Shown: positions 12,695 through 50,692 of the stretch, in pieces
Layout: the number at the start of each line of letters is the position of its first letter
How positions within the stretch are numbered: position 1 is the first letter of the stretch
The notes under the pieces: model-generated
What the model was told of the DNA's origin: nothing
Databases searched by the model: none
Seen by the model: only the letters and a program-made list of their open reading frames with translations
Origin: Xiphophorus maculatus
Taxonomy: Eukaryota; Chordata; Actinopteri; Cyprinodontiformes; Poeciliidae
Length of the DNA stretch: 64,000 nucleotides
NCBI RefSeq assembly: GCF_002775205.1
Contig: NC_036450.1
Location: 25,198,288-25,262,287 of the forward strand
Direction: 5' to 3'
Translations under genes and position numbers: made by a program

Positions 12695-12755
12695 CTACGG
12701 TGGCCGACAGGTGCAAATGCGCAGCAAAAGAGAAAACATGCAAACAAAAAAGAAG

Positions 12756-13038
12756 ACACCCCCGAATGAAATGCAGCAAATAAAAAGAGAGACGCAAACA
12801 CCCCCGAATGAAATGCAGCAAATAAAAAGAGAGACGCAAACACCCCCGAATGAAATGCAGCAAACAAAAAGAGAGACGCAAACACCCCCGAATGAAATGC
12901 AGCAAATAAAAAGAGAGACGCAAACACCCCCGAATGAAATGCAGCAAACAAAAAGAGAGACGCAAACACCCCCGAATGAAATGCAGCAAATAAAAAGAGA
13001 GACGCAAACACCCCCGAATGAAATGCAGCAAATAAAAA
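12756..13038 (+). repeat. 42-bp tandem repeat, 7 units
   Basis: The units start CACCCCCGAATGAAATGCAG and differ mainly at one site (CAAATAAAAAG or CAAACAAAAAG). They form the left arm of the foldback element. Confidence 0.9.
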
Positions 13039-13111
13039 GTGTTGAAAACGGAAGTGCTCCAGACCACTAGGGGGAGTCAAAGAAAATAGTATTCATTTCT
13101 ATGGGACCAGA

Positions 13112-13659
13112 TGCAAGATTCTTCTTCTTCTTCTTCTTCTTGGTATTTATTGGCGGTTGGCAACAAACTTACAGTAGCATTACCGCCACTTACCAGTATG
13201 GAGTGTGGTTCGAGATGGTCTATAAACTTTCACTTTCTACCTTTTCCCTCCATTAACTCCTGATTAAACATACCCCCACACATACACACCTGCTTATATT
13301 ATCCAACTTGCTTATAACTTTATATACCCCTCTTTGATATTCTTTACACATTCACACCCAACTTGCTCTACTCATATCCTATGAAATAGCTTTGTTTTTT
13401 TAAGATACCGAATAATTATTTGAATATGTCTACTCCCGAAATCTCTCCTCAAAAATTCTATTAAATTAAACCTTTCTTTAATACCTACACACTCTCTCAG
13501 CATGCATCTTCTCTCTTCTTCATACTTACAACACTCTAAAATAACATGCTCTATTGTTTCAGACTTCTCACAATAATCACACTTTCCAGATGCAAGATTC
13601 AGAGAGATACCTTTACTTTCTTTCAAATTTCTTTCTCTGAATCTTGCATCTGGTCCCAT
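13112..13659 (-). pseudogene. non-LTR retrotransposon 3' fragment with zinc-finger (zf-RVT-like) C-terminus
   Basis: A minus-strand frame at 13659-13372 encodes about 95 aa with CDYCEKSETIEHVILECCKY, the Cys/His pattern found after the reverse transcriptase in many non-LTR ORF2 proteins. Downstream of it the 3' UTR ends with CCAACCGCCAATAAATACC and a (GAA)n tail, read on the minus strand. The reverse transcriptase itself is absent, so this is a 5'-truncated copy. It lies in the loop of the foldback element. Confidence 0.7.
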
Positions 13660-13721
13660 AGAAATGAATACTATTTTCTTTGACTCCCCCTAGTGGTCTG
13701 GAGCACTTCCGTTTTCAACAC

Positions 13722-13920
13722 TTTTTGTTTGCTGCATTTCATTCGGGGGTGTTTGCGTCTCTCTTTTTATTTGCTGCATTTCATTCGGGGGTGTTTGCGT
13801 CTCTCTTTTTATTTGCTGCATTTCATTCGGGGGTGTTTGCGTCTCTCTTTTTATTTGCTGCATTTCATTCGGGGGTGTTTGCGTCTCTCTTTTTATTTGC
13901 TGCATTTCATTCGGGGGTGT
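13722..13920 (-). repeat. 42-bp tandem repeat, 5 units (right arm)
   Basis: Inverted copies of the units at 12756-13038. Two fewer units than the left arm and fewer variants show that the arms have changed length independently. Confidence 0.9.
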
Positions 13921-13981
13921 CTTCTTTTTTGTTTGCATGTTTTCTCTTTTGCTGCGCATTTGCACCTGTCGGCCACCGTAG

Positions 13982-25631: not shown

Positions 25632-25929
25632 GTACGTTAAAGTCAAACAACAGGCTCCGCCGTCGCGCGCGGCAAGAAGTCACGTATTTTCTGGCTCTCG
25701 ATATATTTCCGCGCGGTATCTGTGCGCGAGAACCGACCGGTGTTAAAAAGTTCTTACCGGGACACTTCAAAGGCAGTCGGCGCTTTGATATCGACAGGCG
25801 GGATGAGGGGGAGAGAGAGAGACGGCTCGCCTCGCAGCCTGGAAGCGATCAGTCCGTGTTCAGCCTGAGGACCAATCACGTGCAAGAATCCTTTCAGTTA
25901 TTTCATATTTCCCGCTCCAGGAAATAAAC

Positions 25930-26217
25930 ACCGCAGTGAAGTTAGTTTCAAGTTGGATATTCGATATTCGAGCTCCGCGGAGTAAGCGGCGTTTAGCTCA
26001 AGGTTGATCCGATTTATGAACGCTACTGTCGGCCAGCGGTTCTCCACCGCTCCCGGCCCGAGCTCCGCGGAGTAACCGACGTTTAGCTGAAAGTTGATCC
26101 GATTTCGGAACGCTACTCCCGGCCAGCGGTTCTCCACCGCTCCCGGCCGCAGCGCCCGAAGGTTCACTTAGGGACTATCAACAAATTACTGAACCTAACA
26201 TTCCTGTCAAAGAAATA
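25930..26217 (+). repeat. MULE left terminal inverted repeat with internal duplication
   Basis: It begins ACCGCAGTGAAGTTAG and matches the inverted right end. A block of about 90 bp (CGAGCTCCGCGGAGTAA to GCTCCCGGCC) is present twice, at about 25970-26058 and 26059-26148, where the right end has it once. It ends near TTCCTGTCAAAGAAAT. Confidence 0.9.
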
Positions 26218-26220
26218 TAA

Positions 26221-26935
26221 TGTTTTCTTCAATAGCTTCCAGGTCATGTGACCTATTGACTCAAAATCACTTTGGAATAATTATACTAGTCTCTTTAGAT
26301 GAGGCACAGTCATTTGTTTTCCATTTTAAATCATTTTCAATTTTTAAAGAATTTATTTCATCAAAATTGAGAGTTTTTCTTCAATAGCTTCCAGGTCATG
26401 TGACCTATTGACTCAAAATCCCTTTGAAATAATTCTAATAGTCCCTTTAATTGAGGCACAGTCATTTGTTTTCCATTTTAAATCATTTTCAATTTTTAAT
26501 TAATTTATTTCATCAAAATTGAGGGTTTTTCTTCAATAGCTTCCAGGTCATGTGACCTATTGACTCAAAATCACTTTGAAATAATTCTAATAGTCTCTTT
26601 AGATGAGGCACAGTCATTTGTTTTCCATTTTTAGCCATTTCCATTTTTTAGGAATTTTTTTCATCAAAATTGAGGGTTTTTATTCAATAGCTTCCAGGTC
26701 ATGTGACCTATTGACTCAAAATCACTTTGAAATAATTCTAATAGTCTCTTTAGATGAGGCACAGTCATTTGTTTTCCATTTTTAGCCATTTTCCATTTTT
26801 TAGGAATTTTTTTCTTCAAAATTGAGGGTTTTTATTCAATAGCTTCCAGGTCATGTGACCTATTGACTCAAAATCACTTTGAAATAATTCTAATAGTCTC
26901 TTTAGATGAGGCACAGTCATTTGTTTGCGATCTAA
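26221..26935 (+). repeat. MULE left subterminal array, 5 units of about 151-152 bp
   Basis: TTCAATAGCTTCCAGG recurs at 26228, 26380, 26532, 26683 and 26834. Each unit has AGGTCATGTGACCT, that is GGTCA and TGACC separated by 2 bp. Subterminal arrays are often transposase-binding regions (inference). Confidence 0.92.
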
Positions 26936-27817
26936 ATTAATTATAAATTTTTAAAAAAAGTTTAGACAGGAAATTGAGGACTTTAATTCTATAGTTTCCA
27001 GCTTATGTCACGTATGCATCTGCAGTCGGTCTTTCGTAACAGCATTTCTCTTTGTTTGATGTTCAAGACAGACTAAGGTGGAAAAAGGAAAGGTTTATTC
27101 ATCTCTGGAATAATATAAAGATAAACCAAAGGTACAATTGCAGCCTTAAGTAGTGTCTGCTCTGAAGGGTCAAACCACCTTTCATTAATTTATAATTTTA
27201 TGTCATCTAGATAAATGCATTTAAAAAAATGCAAACACACATATTTCTGTTTGTTTTTCATATTTTATGTATTACCGTTAAGCAATAAGCACCGTTGTGA
27301 AATACCACAAACTCACCACACACATTTACATGGCCTCTCCTGTAATATATAAATAGTGTTTGGACAAACAGGGAAAAATAAAACGAAAAGAGAGGTGAGT
27401 CACTCTAACTTAGCACTTATGACACTTAATAGACTGTACACAAAGTTTAGTTTTAGTAAACCGTAGCATTACTGTCGCTTGTTTTTCTCTAACAATTTTC
27501 TTCCCAACCCAGACAATCACCTCACTTTTCAAAGAGCAGTTGTGCAGAGCCTGGAACAAAAGGATCAATTGTAATTATTGAAATATCAAATAAATACTTA
27601 AAAATTATTGTGTGAAAATGGTTATTGATGCAAATCTATTTTTAAAGTGTAGTTAAAAATAGAGTAATTTTTAAAGGTATAAGGTGCAATAGGTGCTGTG
27701 AAAGTGCTCTCTATATATGTACATTTATAAGTATGTATAAGTACACATGGATAATATATAAAAAAGTATTTATGAGAAATCCTCATGAAACACACACGAT
27801 ACCAGTAGGTGGCGTTA
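26936..27817 (+). other. MULE 5' region upstream of the transposase gene
   Basis: AT-rich, without long frames. A LINE 3'-tail relic lies at the end (27800-27870, GTGGCGTTAATGCTCC then AAAGAAGAAGAAG), just before the transposase start. Confidence 0.5.
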
Positions 27818-29009
27818 ATGCTCCAAAGCTTGTTTTTCTTTTTGACAATCATCAAAGAAGAAGAAGTAGAAAACGAAGCGCACCTGAGAAAGCGTGTCAT
27901 AGCTCTTGTCAAAATGGGCCGTTTCAGGAAAGGACAGAGCGATAAAAATCGAAATCTTTGGGAAACAGCAGGAGGCATTGATGCCATAATTAAGTGTTTC
28001 ATTTCGTTGAAGTTTAGCGAGGCAGTGCCAACTTATGACCAATGGTTGTCTCTTGTTTTTTATCTATTTAAAAGTAATGATAAAAAATATTTTAAGTGGT
28101 TGAAGGTCATTTGGGCTTCAGATCGCAAAGGATTAAGGACGAAGGTGCTTAATACAGGTACTTTTTTTTTTTTTTTTTTTTTTGCTAGTTACAGTGTTGT
28201 TACAGTATTCTTTGCATATTTTTGTGTCACAAAGATGGAGAGCCATCTAATTCAAAATTAAATAAATAAATTAAAGAAACACAAAAGGAAAATATGTCTC
28301 TTAGAAAAACATGGTGTTTGTTGTGCATGATAAAGTGAAATTTTTTATTAGTAGTTATAATTTTCCTGTTAGGGGCTCTTATGAGCACCTATCAGTATCC
28401 TTCTAGGGTCTCATAAGATTTTTATTTAACATACATATATAATAAAAATGTACAATTAATATGTGTTATTTTGGATATGTTTCTCGTTAGGTAGCCAAAT
28501 CAGTGAGAAGGGCAATGTGCCAATGACGATGTTTGGAAATGGGACCCAAAATCAAGCAGAGAATAGTACAGGACAAGAACATTCTGTTTACTACACAGGA
28601 CAAAATACCATTCAGGACAGTGAACAGTCATTGGAAAAAGCTAAATTACATGTTAAACAACCACAGTCAGAACAGCAGACAGGATATAATGATGAAAATG
28701 ACGATATAACAGAGGATGCAAAAGTTCCAAAATCAAAGAAACCTCTCAAAAGAATAAAAAGGGACAGAATAGGCCAGGCAGTTGTTCAGCCCCATGAATG
28801 TTTGGACACACAGAGTAGTACAGCACAAGATGCGTACTCTGAAGACACAGGACAAAATACCACTGAGGACAGGGAGCCGTCACAGGACAAAGTAGAAGTC
28901 AATAAAAAACAGCCAGATTCACAACAACAGACAGGACAGGAGAAAACAAAAGAGGCTCAGAATGCGGACAGAACAGAGGAAAGAACAGAGGATCAGAGTG
29001 AAGAAACAA

Positions 29010-30090
29010 CACAGGAACAGAATGAGGAAAGAACAGAGGAACAGAACGAGGAAACAACACAGGAAAGAACAGAGGAACAGAATGAGGAAACAACACAGGA
29101 AAGAACACAGGAACAGAATGAGGAAACAACACAGGAAAGAACACAGGAACAGAATGAGGAAACAACACAGGAAAGAACACAGGAACAGAATGAGGAAACA
29201 ACACAGGAAAGAACACAGGAACAGAATGAGGAAACAACACAGGAACAGAATGAGGAAACAACACAGGAACAGAATGAGGAAACAACACAGGAAAGAACAC
29301 AGGAACAGAATGAGGAAACAACACAGGAACAGAATGAGGAAACAACACAGGAACAGAATGAGGAAACAACACAGGAACAGAATGAGGAAACAACACAGGA
29401 AAGAACACAGGAACAGAATGAGGAAACAACACAGGAACAGAACGAGGAAACAACACAGGAAAGAACAGAGGAACAGAATGAGGAAACAACACAGGAAAGA
29501 ACACAGGAACAGAATGAGGAAACAACACAGGAAAGAACAGAGGAACAGAATGAGGAAACAACACAGGAACAGAATGAGGAAACAACACAGGAAAGAACAC
29601 AGGAACAGAATGAGGAAACAACACAGGAACAGAATGAGGAAACAACACAGGAACAGAATGAGGAAACAACACAGGAAAGAACACAGGAACAGAATGAGGA
29701 AACAACACAGGAACAGAACGAGGAAACAACACAGGAAAGAACAGAGGAACAGAATGAGGAAACAACACAGGAAAGAACACAGGAACAGAATGAGGAAACA
29801 ACACAGGAAAGAACAGAGGAACAGAATGAGGAAACAACACAGGAACAGAATGAGGAAACAACACAGGAACAGAATGAGGAAACAACACAGGAACAGAATG
29901 AGGAAACAACACAGGAAAGAACACAGGAACAGAATGAGGAAACAACACAGGAACAGAATGAGGAAACAACACAGGAAAGAACACAGGAACAGAATGAGGA
30001 AACAACACAGGAACAGAACGAGGAAAGAACAGCGGAACAGAATGAGGAAACAACACAGGAAAGAACAGCGGAACAGAATAATGAAAGAAC
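29010..30090 (+). repeat. in-frame coding minisatellite of 24- and 36-bp units
   Basis: It alternates units encoding EETTQEQN (24 bp) and EETTQERTQEQN or EETTQERTEEQN (36 bp), more than 30 in total. All units are multiples of three, so the frame survives changes in copy number. Long reading frames on the opposite strand here are by-products. Confidence 0.95.
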
Positions 30091-31138
30091 AGAGGATGGA
30101 AATGATGACCAGAAATGTGCTACATCTAGAATAAATCCAAAAAAGGACAAAAAGAAACAACATAAACACAGCAAAAGTGACTACAGACAATGCAAGGCAG
30201 GCCCCCGTAATTTTAAAATAAAGATAACAAGAAAAAAATGGAAAAAAATCAAACCCAAACATCGCCACAGTCAATTACGTCACCCTTGGACTGAGATATT
30301 ATATGATCAATTCAACAAAATAAATCCATGTTGTACACTTTTCTTTAAATATCAACACGTGAAACTCAGCAGCAGCCGTAAAAAAAAGTGTCCATTTTTT
30401 ATTGCTCGTGCCAAATGCACCTTTAATGGATGCAATGCAATTTATACTTTTAGAAAGAAGAACATCCCTAAACCATTTGACAGCGAAATCTCTTTTATTG
30501 TGAAACGGCTTGGTTCGGTGACACACCGTAAAAAAGAATGGAGATTCAGACCAGCAAAATACTTAAAAAGAGGTAAGATAGCCAAAGCTGTAGCAGATGG
30601 TGTGAGTAAATACTACTATTCAAAGTTGAGGCAGACACCAATCCAAGAAATCACAGCGGGGAACATTACGAAAAGCCTCACTAAAGATGTTTTAAGAAAA
30701 ATTTCATCAGAATTAAAGAAGAGTACAAGACTCCATGATGACATAATACTTGAGCTCATGTTAACACAAAAACTGATTAAAGAAACAAGCATTAATTCAA
30801 ACTCCAAGGGATATTTCCAACAACTTCACATTGACCCTTTTGCAGTGCATTTACAAACAGACACCGGATTACAGATATTGGCCCACCATCTAAGAAATTC
30901 ATCACCTGTTACCCTCCATCTTGATGCCACAGGGAGTGTTGTACAAAAAATACCTGGTCAGGAAAAAAAAATTCTGTATTACGCTATGGTTTTGCCAGGG
31001 ATGGGCAAGGACAAACCTCCTTTGCCCATAACTGAGCTACTGACCAACAGCCATACTGTTCCTTCCATTTCACACTGGTTGATGGAATTTAACAGAAAAC
31101 TGACCCATCCATCCATCCATCCATCCATCTTCTTCCGC

Positions 31139-32727
31139 TTATCCGAGGTCGGGTCGCGGGGGTAGCAGCTTCAGAAGGGAGGCCCAGACTTCCCTCTCCC
31201 CAGCCACTTCTTCTAGCTCCTCCGGGGGAATCCCGAGGCGTTCCCAGGCCAGCCGAGAGACATAGTCCCTCCAGCGTGTCCTGGGTCTTCCCCGGGGCCT
31301 CCTCCCGGTGGGACGTGCCCGGAACACCTCACCAGGGAGGCGTCCAGGAGGCATCCTGACCAGATGCCCGAGCCACCTCAACTGGCTCCTCTCGATGTGA
31401 AGGAGCAGCGGCTCTACTCTGAGTCCCTCCCGGATGACTGAGCTTCTCACCCTATCTCTAAGGGAGAGCCCAGCCACCCTACGGAGAAAACCCATTTCGG
31501 CCGCTTGTATCCGCGATCTCGTTCTTTCGGTCATGACCCAAAGCTCATGACCATAGATGAGGGTGGGAACGTAGATCGACCGGTAAATCGAGAGCTTCGC
31601 TTTTTGGCTCAGCTCTCTCTTCACCACGACGGACCGGTACAGCGCCCGCTTGACAGCAGACGCTGCGCTAATCCGCCTGTCGATCTCCCGCTCCCTTCTT
31701 CCCCCATTCGTGAACAAGATCCCGAGATACTTAAACTCCTCCACTTGGGGCAGGACACCCCCCCTGACCCGGAGAAGGCACTCTACCCTTTTCCGGCTCA
31801 AGACCATGGCCTTGGATTTGGAGGCACTGATCCCCATCCCGGCCGCTTCACACTCGGCTGCGAACCGCTCCAGCGAGAGCTGCAGATCACGATCTGATGA
31901 AGCCAAAAGGACCACATCGTCTGCGAAAAGCAGAGATGAGATCCTAAGGCCACCAAATCGGACCCCCTCAACACCTTGGCTGCGCCTAGAAATTCTGTCC
32001 ATGAAAGTGATGAACAGAATTGGTGACAAAGGGCAGCCCTGGCGGAGTCCAACTCTCACCGGAAACGAGCCCGACTTACTGCCGGCAATGCGGACCAGAC
32101 TCTGACACCGGTCATACAGGGACCTGACAGCCCGTATCAAAGGGCCCGGTACCCCATACTCCCGGAGAACCCCCCACAGGGCTCCCCGAGGGACACGGTC
32201 GAACGCCTTCTCCAAGTCCACAAAACACATGTAGACTGGTTGGGCGAACTCCCATGCACCCTCCAGGACCCTGCCGAGGGTGTAGAGCTGGTCCAGTGTT
32301 CCACGACCAGGACGAAAACCACACTGCTCTTCCTGGATCCGAGGTTCGACTATCCGACGGACCCTCCTCTCCAGGACCCCTGAATAGACCTTGCCAGGGA
32401 GGCTTAAGAGTGTGACCCCTCTATAATTGGAGCACACCCTCCGGTCCCCCTTTTTGAACAGGGGGACCACCACCCCAGTCTGCCAATCCAGGGGAACTGC
32501 CCCCGATGTCCATGCGACATTGCAGAGTCGCGTCAACCAACACAACCCCACAACATCCAGAGCCTTAAGGAACTCCGGGCGGATCTCATCCACCCCCGGG
32601 GCCCTGCCACCGAGGAGCTTTTTAACCACCTCGGTGACCTCGTCCCCAGAGATTGGAGAGCCCAACCCAGAGTCCCCAGGCTCCGCTTCCTCAGTGGAAG
32701 TGGGGGGGAAGCGGTGCAGCACCAACA
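31139..32727 (-). pseudogene. Rex3 reverse transcriptase, 5'-truncated
   Basis: About 529 codons remain open on the minus strand. Landmarks are VDLEKAFDRV (RT motif A), LRQGCPLSPILF (motif B), LLFADDVVLLA (motif C, the YADD/FADD catalytic site) and a C-terminal region with LRWLGHLVRM and RGRPRTRWRD, usual in fish Rex/RTE-like elements. The endonuclease domain is missing because of 5' truncation, so the copy cannot move by itself. The frame is intact to its stop, in line with a recent insertion. Confidence 0.93.
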
Positions 32728-32839
32728 CTGTTTATAGTGGGGATGGTGTGCTGCTGACCTCTACTCGGGACATTGTGGGCCGGTGGGCGGAGTACTTCGA
32801 AGACCTCCTCAATCCCACCAACATGCCTTCCACTGAGGA
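32728..32839 (+). pseudogene. inverted 5' segment of the Rex3 copy
   Basis: On the plus strand this encodes RT-upstream residues (IVGRWAEYFEDLLNPTNMPS), the part that normally precedes the AEPGDSG region found on the minus strand at the other side of the break. Opposite orientation of the two parts is the mark of twin priming. Confidence 0.85.
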
Positions 32840-33099
32840 AGAAAACTGACCCACACTACCAAAATCAAAATAGCACAGATAGAAACCGACTACAGCTGGG
32901 CTCTCATTAATAGTGTGCTACTAGCCTTTAACAAGGAGGATATTTCAAAGTACCTAGACAGAGCGTTTGAGATTGTGCATGAACATAAAGTTGAAATGAA
33001 AAAGTTCACAGTATTGCACCTGTGCTCTGCCCATATTATGAAGGCTGTTACACAAGCTTTTGGGACAAAGACCCGTGATCGAGGCTTAAAAGAGTAAAA

Positions 33100-33536
33100 A
33101 AAATTAATTAAAAGTTGAAAATGATTTAAAATGGAAAACAAATGACTGTGCCTCATCTATACAGACTGGTAGAACAAGTTCAAAGTGATTTTGACTCAAT
33201 AGGTCACATGACCTGGAAGCTATTGAAGAAAAACCCTCAATTTTGAAGAAAAAAATTCCTAAAAAATGGAAAATGGCTAAAAATGGAAAACAAATGACTG
33301 TGCCTCATCTAAAGAGACTATTAGAATTATTTCAAAGTGATTTTGAGTCAATAGGTCACATGACCTGGAAGCTATTGAAGAAAAACACTCAATTTTGAAG
33401 AAAAAAATTCCTAAAAAATGGAAAATGATTTAAAATGGAAAACAAATGACTGTGCCTCATCTAAAGAGACTAGTATAATTATTTCAAAGTGATTTTGAGT
33501 CAATAGGTCACATGACCTGGAAGCTATTGAAGAAAA
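33100..33536 (-). repeat. MULE right subterminal array, 3 units of 152 bp
   Basis: GCTATTGAAG recurs at about 33219, 33371 and 33523, in inverted orientation to the left array. Each unit again has GGTCACATGACC. Confidence 0.92.
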
Positions 33537-33676
33537 CATTATATTATTTAATATTAAAATTATTGAAAATATTGTATATGACTTTAAAATTTTATAGATG
33601 CTATTTTGGCTCATGTAAAAGCATGAATTAGCACTGACAATTAGTTAGTTGGTTACAATTCAAGGCATTTATTAAC

Positions 33677-33873
33677 ATTTCTTTGACAGGAATGTTTGGT
33701 TCGGTAATTTGTTGATAGTCCCTAAGTGAACCTTCGGGCGCTGCGGCCGGGAGCGGTGGAGAACCGCTGGCCGACAGTAGCGTTCATAAATCGGATCAAC
33801 CTTGAGCTAAACGCCGCTTACTCCGCGGAGCTCGAATATCGAATATCCAACTTGAAACTAACTTCACTGCGGT
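33677..33873 (-). repeat. MULE right terminal inverted repeat
   Basis: 197 bp, nearly perfect inverse of the left end apart from the extra 90-bp block there. About 140 bp (33537-33676) with no left-end counterpart separates it from the subterminal array. Confidence 0.92.
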
Positions 33874-33882
33874 GAAATAAAC

Positions 33883-42834: not shown

Positions 42835-50692
<7,858 letters not shown>

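Follow-up and report, generated by a model that had tools for sequence, protein, structure and literature searches.

What kind of element is the long-ended transposon that lies in the 64,000-nucleotide stretch of DNA analysed here (the window, C8:25198288-25262287 of a 704-Mb genome), and is it, as an earlier note had proposed, a complete and recent Mutator-like copy in a vertebrate? Our analysis supports a probable answer in which the element cannot move on its own, has been damaged twice and belongs to a young cut-and-paste family of the Mutator superfamily with Rehavkus-type anatomy, and in which this family consists of two derivative classes, A and B, that are bounded by subterminal repeat arrays.

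The element spans 25930-33873 of the window, and direct reading of its flanks gives a perfect 9-bp target-site duplication (GAAATAAAC at 25921-25929 on the left and at 33874-33882 on the right, 9/9 letters matching). Alignment of both ends yields a left terminal inverted repeat of 287 bp (25930-26216, plus strand) and a right one of 197 bp (33677-33873, minus strand), the left being longer because a 90-bp piece is tandemly duplicated within it (25969-26058 and 26059-26148). The outer 129 bp of the two repeats are 100% identical, and another 158 aligned bp are 93.7% identical. Further inward lie two opposed arrays of a 152-bp unit, with about 4.8 units on the left (26223-26955, plus strand) and about 2.9 units on the right (33097-33536, minus strand), and inverted matches extend to 448 bp at 92%. 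Near-identical ends of about 200-290 bp, opposed subterminal arrays and an exact 9-bp duplication are all as the earlier note had described them.

Between the arrays, the plus strand carries the front half of a putative transposase gene. Its first exon, which we infer to end at 28157 from a GT donor and the reading phase, is an open frame of 81 codons plus one base (27914-28157) that is retained in the sister copies at C1:31987308 and C5:132917. The following segment (28158-28490, plus strand), bounded by GT and AG with agreeing phases, is likely a real transposase intron, and the second exon is predicted, from an open frame at 28460-31165 and alignment to a relative, to run from 28491 to 31107, up to the insertion of a retroelement. 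Within this exon, the motif LHLDATGSVV presumably holds the first catalytic Asp, and the huge hydrophilic repeat that had been noticed previously proves to be a coding minisatellite of 12-, 24- and 36-bp units (28944-30096, plus strand), which is long in the window copy and short in the C1 and C5 copies (open frame of 901 residues in the window copy vs 607 in the C1 copy). The remaining part of the front half (32854-33097, plus strand) contains a CSAH motif and TDYSWA, presumed to hold the second Asp, and its frame stops at 33095-33097, ahead of the expected site of the last catalytic acidic residue.

The gap between 31107 and 32854, across which the earlier note had the transposase spliced, is a non-LTR retroelement insertion. 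This 1,732-bp fragment (31108-32839, minus strand) encodes a reverse transcriptase (frame within 31139-32731; Pfam RVT_1, E 3.6e-36), carries a CCAT-type repeat at one edge and is flanked by a 14-bp target duplication (AGAAAACTGACCCA at 31094-31107 and 32840-32853), and the corresponding site is empty in two sister copies (C1 and C5), where the sequence runs on uninterrupted. On the basis of the reverse transcriptase domain, the duplication and the empty sites, an intron at 31108-32839 was rejected; the two pieces of the conserved transposase part named in the earlier note are therefore a single exon split by the insertion. Nor is the copy complete, as had been supposed, since its frame both ends before the expected last catalytic residue and is interrupted by the retroelement. 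The predicted structure of the 30179-31105 translation alone was uninformative (mean pLDDT 36), comparison of the front half with solved structures gave only two matches, at E 0.43 and 1.1, and two scans of viral contigs returned no relative.

A search of the genome with the terminal repeats, in which 40 of 159 candidates were scored and 48 matches listed (copy counts being lower bounds), identified at least nine young copies with both ends at 94% or better. Three of these, which we term class A, carry the transposase front half (the window copy, C1:31987308 and C5:132917), and the other six, class B, carry a different gene part (C5:17211531, C11:14426004, C19:26361941, C19:27259813, C20:21560323 and C20:25012477). 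The front half gave 29 matches in the genome, with 98-100% identity at the three class A loci, one row at 76% that continues the C5 copy, and 25 rows at 25-47%; its last 80 residues are matched at 100% at the same three loci and elsewhere at only 31-32% (E 0.18 and 2.35). All matches of the B part (6/6) fall in the six remaining copies with these ends, and no copy containing both parts was found among the genome matches of either part.

Within each class the copies are nearly identical: over the class A pieces, minisatellite excluded, the window copy shows 99.0-100% identity to the C1 or C5 copy, and BLAST comparison of the class B interiors with the C11 copy gives 99.2-99.7%. Arrays of the 152-bp unit occur on both sides in all six of the nine young copies that were examined whole (BLAST array units: C1, 2/2; C5:132917, 2/3; C19:27259813, 10/6; C11, 5/5; C20:25012477, 8/2). 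The 9-bp duplication is perfect in three of the nine young copies and present as imperfect 9-mers in the other six, and the different duplication length that the earlier note had named as evidence against its reading was not seen in these copies. Since copies lie within about 1% of one another and three have perfect duplications, we conclude that the family moved recently.

The class B gene begins directly at its array and is readable as nine exons, with one junction out of phase as drawn, where the gene may be broken or an exon boundary misdrawn. It encodes a Ulp1-type peptidase (Peptidase_C48, PF02902, 28.5 bits against a cut-off of 20.7, E 1.7e-6; E 0.016 in comparison with yeast Ulp1) and a PHD finger (PF00628, E 6e-10), which is missing from the window copy. 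The matched B part is free of stops in all six copies and contains NCHVELWF, presumed by eye to hold the last catalytic Glu, and the PHD exon has an in-frame stop in three of the six copies and none in the other three. Two class B copies are incomplete: the initial 172 bp of the B part are missing from C20:25012477, and most of the peptidase exons from C5:17211531.

The B part probably represents the back half of the class A transposase. The A half matches a relative on C15 (L017), read in one frame, at E 2e-15, spanning both Asp residues and the [C/D]xxH motif, with LHLDATGSVV/VAFDATGSVV, ETDYSWALI/ISDFSLALL and CSAH/DVAH in register. Downstream of this match, residues 51-79 of B align to the same relative (E 0.03, a weak match), and the PLWSG motif lies within this short similarity, at the expected place. 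Moreover, the stop of A and the start of B both lie directly at an array boundary, and the ends and arrays are common to both classes. The same order of motifs within one gene is found in other fish transposases, and the [C/D]xxH motif characterises the Mutator and hAT group. By comparison with the C15 relative, both classes seem to lack about 55 residues that would lie between the two halves.

The C15 relative and its counterpart on C12 (L016) are long open frames that are nearly identical over 441 compared residues and distantly related to the transposase. Neither frame has a Pfam match; their later part (NTCAFD ... GHYVAFCKR) resembles a ubiquitin-peptidase-type domain by eye, and further fragments of the same family occur elsewhere in the genome. 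Weak relatives of the front half are also found on C7 (L005-L008, within C7:3034864-7872645), at about 35-50% identity and with stops in several, and four C7 relatives (C7:5408262, 5425152, 5442006 and 5459318) are spaced about 17 kb apart.

Several results weigh against the explanation that we favour. BLAST gives a further weak match between B and the C15 relative that is out of order, local alignment of B to the downstream part of this relative was equalled by 14 of 500 shuffles, and free-end alignment was equalled by 5 of 1000 shuffles, with another stretch of the relative scoring equally. Against a profile built from 12 rows of C15 relatives, B aligned at the expected place and ranked below 4 of 500 shuffles; given this weak support, we lowered our confidence in the overall explanation slightly, to the level of probable stated at the outset. 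In addition, a full-length source element was not found in this assembly, and perfect duplications are absent from six of the nine young copies. Pfam searches of the transposase parts (E up to 10) gave no MULE match, their sole match being a sub-threshold one to DUF3231 over the last 80 residues (E 0.066), and the MULE profile PF10551 gave five weak matches across the genome, none over the cut-off (best E 0.16), the same profile having given matches in 4 of 14 control genomes. Finally, Rehavkus and MuDR were compared by published description rather than by protein alignment.

Taken together, the two classes can be accounted for by an ancestral full-length element with terminal inverted repeats of about 200 bp, inward 152-bp arrays and one multi-exon gene, whose product would have been a DDE-type transposase ending in a Ulp1-type peptidase and a PHD finger. 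Deletions ending at the arrays would have produced class A, with the front half only, and class B, with the probable back half, the peptidase and the PHD finger. Both classes retain the ends at which a transposase would bind, so that a full-length source could mobilise either of them in trans. Later, the retroelement inserted into the transposase frame of the window copy.

Substitution patterns bear on whether the coding parts are still maintained. Class A copies carry substitutions at 6 of 1963 exon bases and 8 of 1231 other bases (p 0.17), and class B copies at 9 of 1618 exon bases and 30 of 3041 other bases (p 0.13), so that in neither class is the lower rate in exons significant. In these small samples, all six exon substitutions in class A and seven of eight in class B change the amino acid, with a ninth class B change being between stop and sense. 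With almost every scored exon change affecting the protein sequence, classes A and B both seem to be derivatives in decay, descended from a full-length source.

This pattern bears directly on a different explanation, that of a split transposase whose A and B half-proteins (or RNAs) cooperate in trans as a bipartite system. Such a system would account for two gene parts that each recur in several near-identical copies, share their ends and yet were never found joined, as well as for the open front half of the C1 copy and the stop-free B part of six copies. We nevertheless regard it as highly improbable: the lack of detectable coding constraint speaks against a functional split enzyme and in favour of derivatives mobilised by a lost or unfound full-length source, the intervening residues seem to be in neither class, and both classes include damaged copies, with one class A copy frameshifted, the window copy interrupted by the retroelement, and class B copies lacking peptidase exons or the start of the B part. 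It is also quite unlikely that the B gene is a separate gene of the sister elements, either their own or captured cargo. A separate gene would be in keeping with the weak sequence evidence that B is the back half, but the similarity around PLWSG falls where a back half should align, the A stop and the B start sit directly at an array boundary, and B runs into Ulp1 and PHD domains, a tail reported for Mutator transposases in passages of PMC2836005.

The family can be placed in the Mutator superfamily because of its ends, its 9-bp duplications, its arrays and the Ulp1-PHD tail of the sister copies, and, assigned by anatomy, Rehavkus appears to be its closest described group. The proposal of a young, long-ended Mutator-like element stands at this level; the Pfam MULE profile is unmatched, and Rehavkus appears closer than canonical MULEs. 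A canonical MULE of the MuDR type is unlikely; Ulp1 in hydra, lancelet and plant Mutator elements, together with a figure legend that aligns the Ulp1 and PHD domains of Ginger1 and Mutator transposases (both in passages of PMC2836005), would suit it, but the MULE profile is without a match, SWIM and FLYWCH domains likewise gave no match in the same Pfam scans of the transposase parts, and the inverted subterminal minisatellites fit Rehavkus better. Distinctly unlikely is another DDE superfamily with the [C/D]xxH motif that converged on long ends and 9-bp duplications. Such a convergence would be compatible with the lack of any profile match above threshold, with fold-back anatomy, which several superfamilies can produce according to passages of PMC4079207, and with the pairing of Ulp1 and PHD in Ginger1; Ginger1, however, has 4-bp duplications and an integrase-type core (PMC2836005, in part), and the 9-bp duplications, ends of about 200 bp, arrays and PHD finger jointly fit Rehavkus.

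The imperfect duplications show a pattern of their own. In the six copies concerned (C1:31987308, C5:132917, C5:17211531, C11:14426004, C19:26361941 and C20:21560323), 32 of 54 letters are the same when each 9-mer is paired with its true partner, and of 720 pairings only this one reaches that value (mean 16.7). At 21 of the 22 mismatched positions, the element-distal letter is the reverse complement of the element tip, the mismatch pattern leaving the outermost tip letter open in that GGGT scores equal to CGGT. Simulations that allowed the best motif each time reached a maximum of 18 in 20,000 runs, against the 21 observed; the pattern had been noticed before it was tested, in a sample of nine copies. 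Possibly, though we consider it doubtful, insertion overwrites the element-distal part of the duplication with the inverted tip (left flank CGGT, right flank ACCG) through tip-templated gap repair. An equally good fit is given by a palindromic target, CGGTNACCG, whose element-proximal letters changed later. Either way, the patterned duplications may reveal how the insertion gap is repaired.

An older pair on C4 with exact tips and a terminal repeat at 86%, which was excluded from the nine, shows no duplication: its flanks match at only three of nine letters, and one of the six mismatches follows the tip pattern. At older tip-bearing places (33 of 40 micro-regions and 14 longer ones were read), the tip lies mostly within longer, different repeats, and such copies are therefore no test of the duplication pattern. 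Tip-like sequence occurs at 107 places in the genome, and a set of older repeats (L110-L123), with two flank types, carries the same tip internally; the young terminus may have originated inside an older repeat.

The window holds two further repeat structures. At 12695-13981 there is a second fold-back-like structure, in which a 42-bp unit forms two opposed arrays (12756-13039 and 13721-13920) within inverted arms of 261-296 bp at 97-100%, and for which no duplication is evident by eye. At 49916-50653, a 334-bp unit is repeated about 2.2 times at 98%, with long TA and AG runs.

Two matches to the MHC class II beta domain exceed the cut-off in this genome (E 1.6e-12 and 2.1e-9), compared with matches in none of 14 control genomes, and support a jawed vertebrate as host, in line with the vertebrate host first suggested. 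This domain is not known outside jawed vertebrates. The host may more narrowly be a fish, as the earlier note had it, with which the genome size and contigs of 15-35 Mb are compatible. A 2019 survey left open, in the passages that concern it, whether elements of the Mutator superfamily, or MULEs, are truly absent from vertebrates (PMC6446971); a recently active family of Rehavkus anatomy in a jawed vertebrate bears on this question and provides testable sequences. The A and B classes would also illustrate how array-bounded deletion can split a transposon family into derivatives whose source is gone or missing.

Among known systems, Ginger1 combines Ulp1 and PHD with an integrase-type core and CCGG/CCGT-specific duplications of 4 bp (PMC2836005, in part), in contrast to the 9-bp duplications found here. 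Tetris, a foldback element of Drosophila, resembles the window family in its long ends with internal tandem repeats and in that its source element was not found; passages of PMC4079207 give it duplications of 8-10 bp, compared with 9 bp here, and describe it as devoid of conserved coding capacity, whereas the window family retains coding parts. MuDR elements and MULEs with Ulp1 from hydra, lancelet and plants share with the window family Ulp1, PHD according to the figure legend (PMC2836005, in part) and 9-bp duplications, which passages of PMC6446971 list for many MULE groups; the window family differs from them in its subterminal minisatellite arrays and in having no Pfam MULE match. Vertebrate entries named MuDR do exist, in the form of zebrafish MuDR-1_DR to MuDR-3_DR in Repbase, which the same survey considers, in the passage on them, to be mis-identified and not alignable with MULEs (PMC6446971).

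Rehavkus itself is described in passages of PMC6446971 as an outgroup of the MULEs with 9-bp duplications, ends of 26-400 bp, a PHD finger and a minisatellite, and with arthropods and annelids as known hosts, in contrast to the jawed vertebrate host here. No vertebrate Rehavkus is named in the passages of the Rehavkus literature consulted, of which PMC4438587 pools 'Mutator + Rehavkus'. In the window family the PHD finger lies only in the class B gene, which would be part of the transposase, and this gene also encodes an Ulp1 peptidase. Other features are shared: the 9-bp duplication is exact in three of nine young copies, the window copy's terminal repeats (197 and 287 bp) fall inside the range given for Rehavkus, and inverted arrays of a unit of about 150-165 bp lie by the ends in both, with 152 bp here and, in the 9.5-kb Rehavkus-1_TC of the flour beetle, a 164-bp unit present in the inverted termini mostly as five and eight monomers (PMC10218199, in part).

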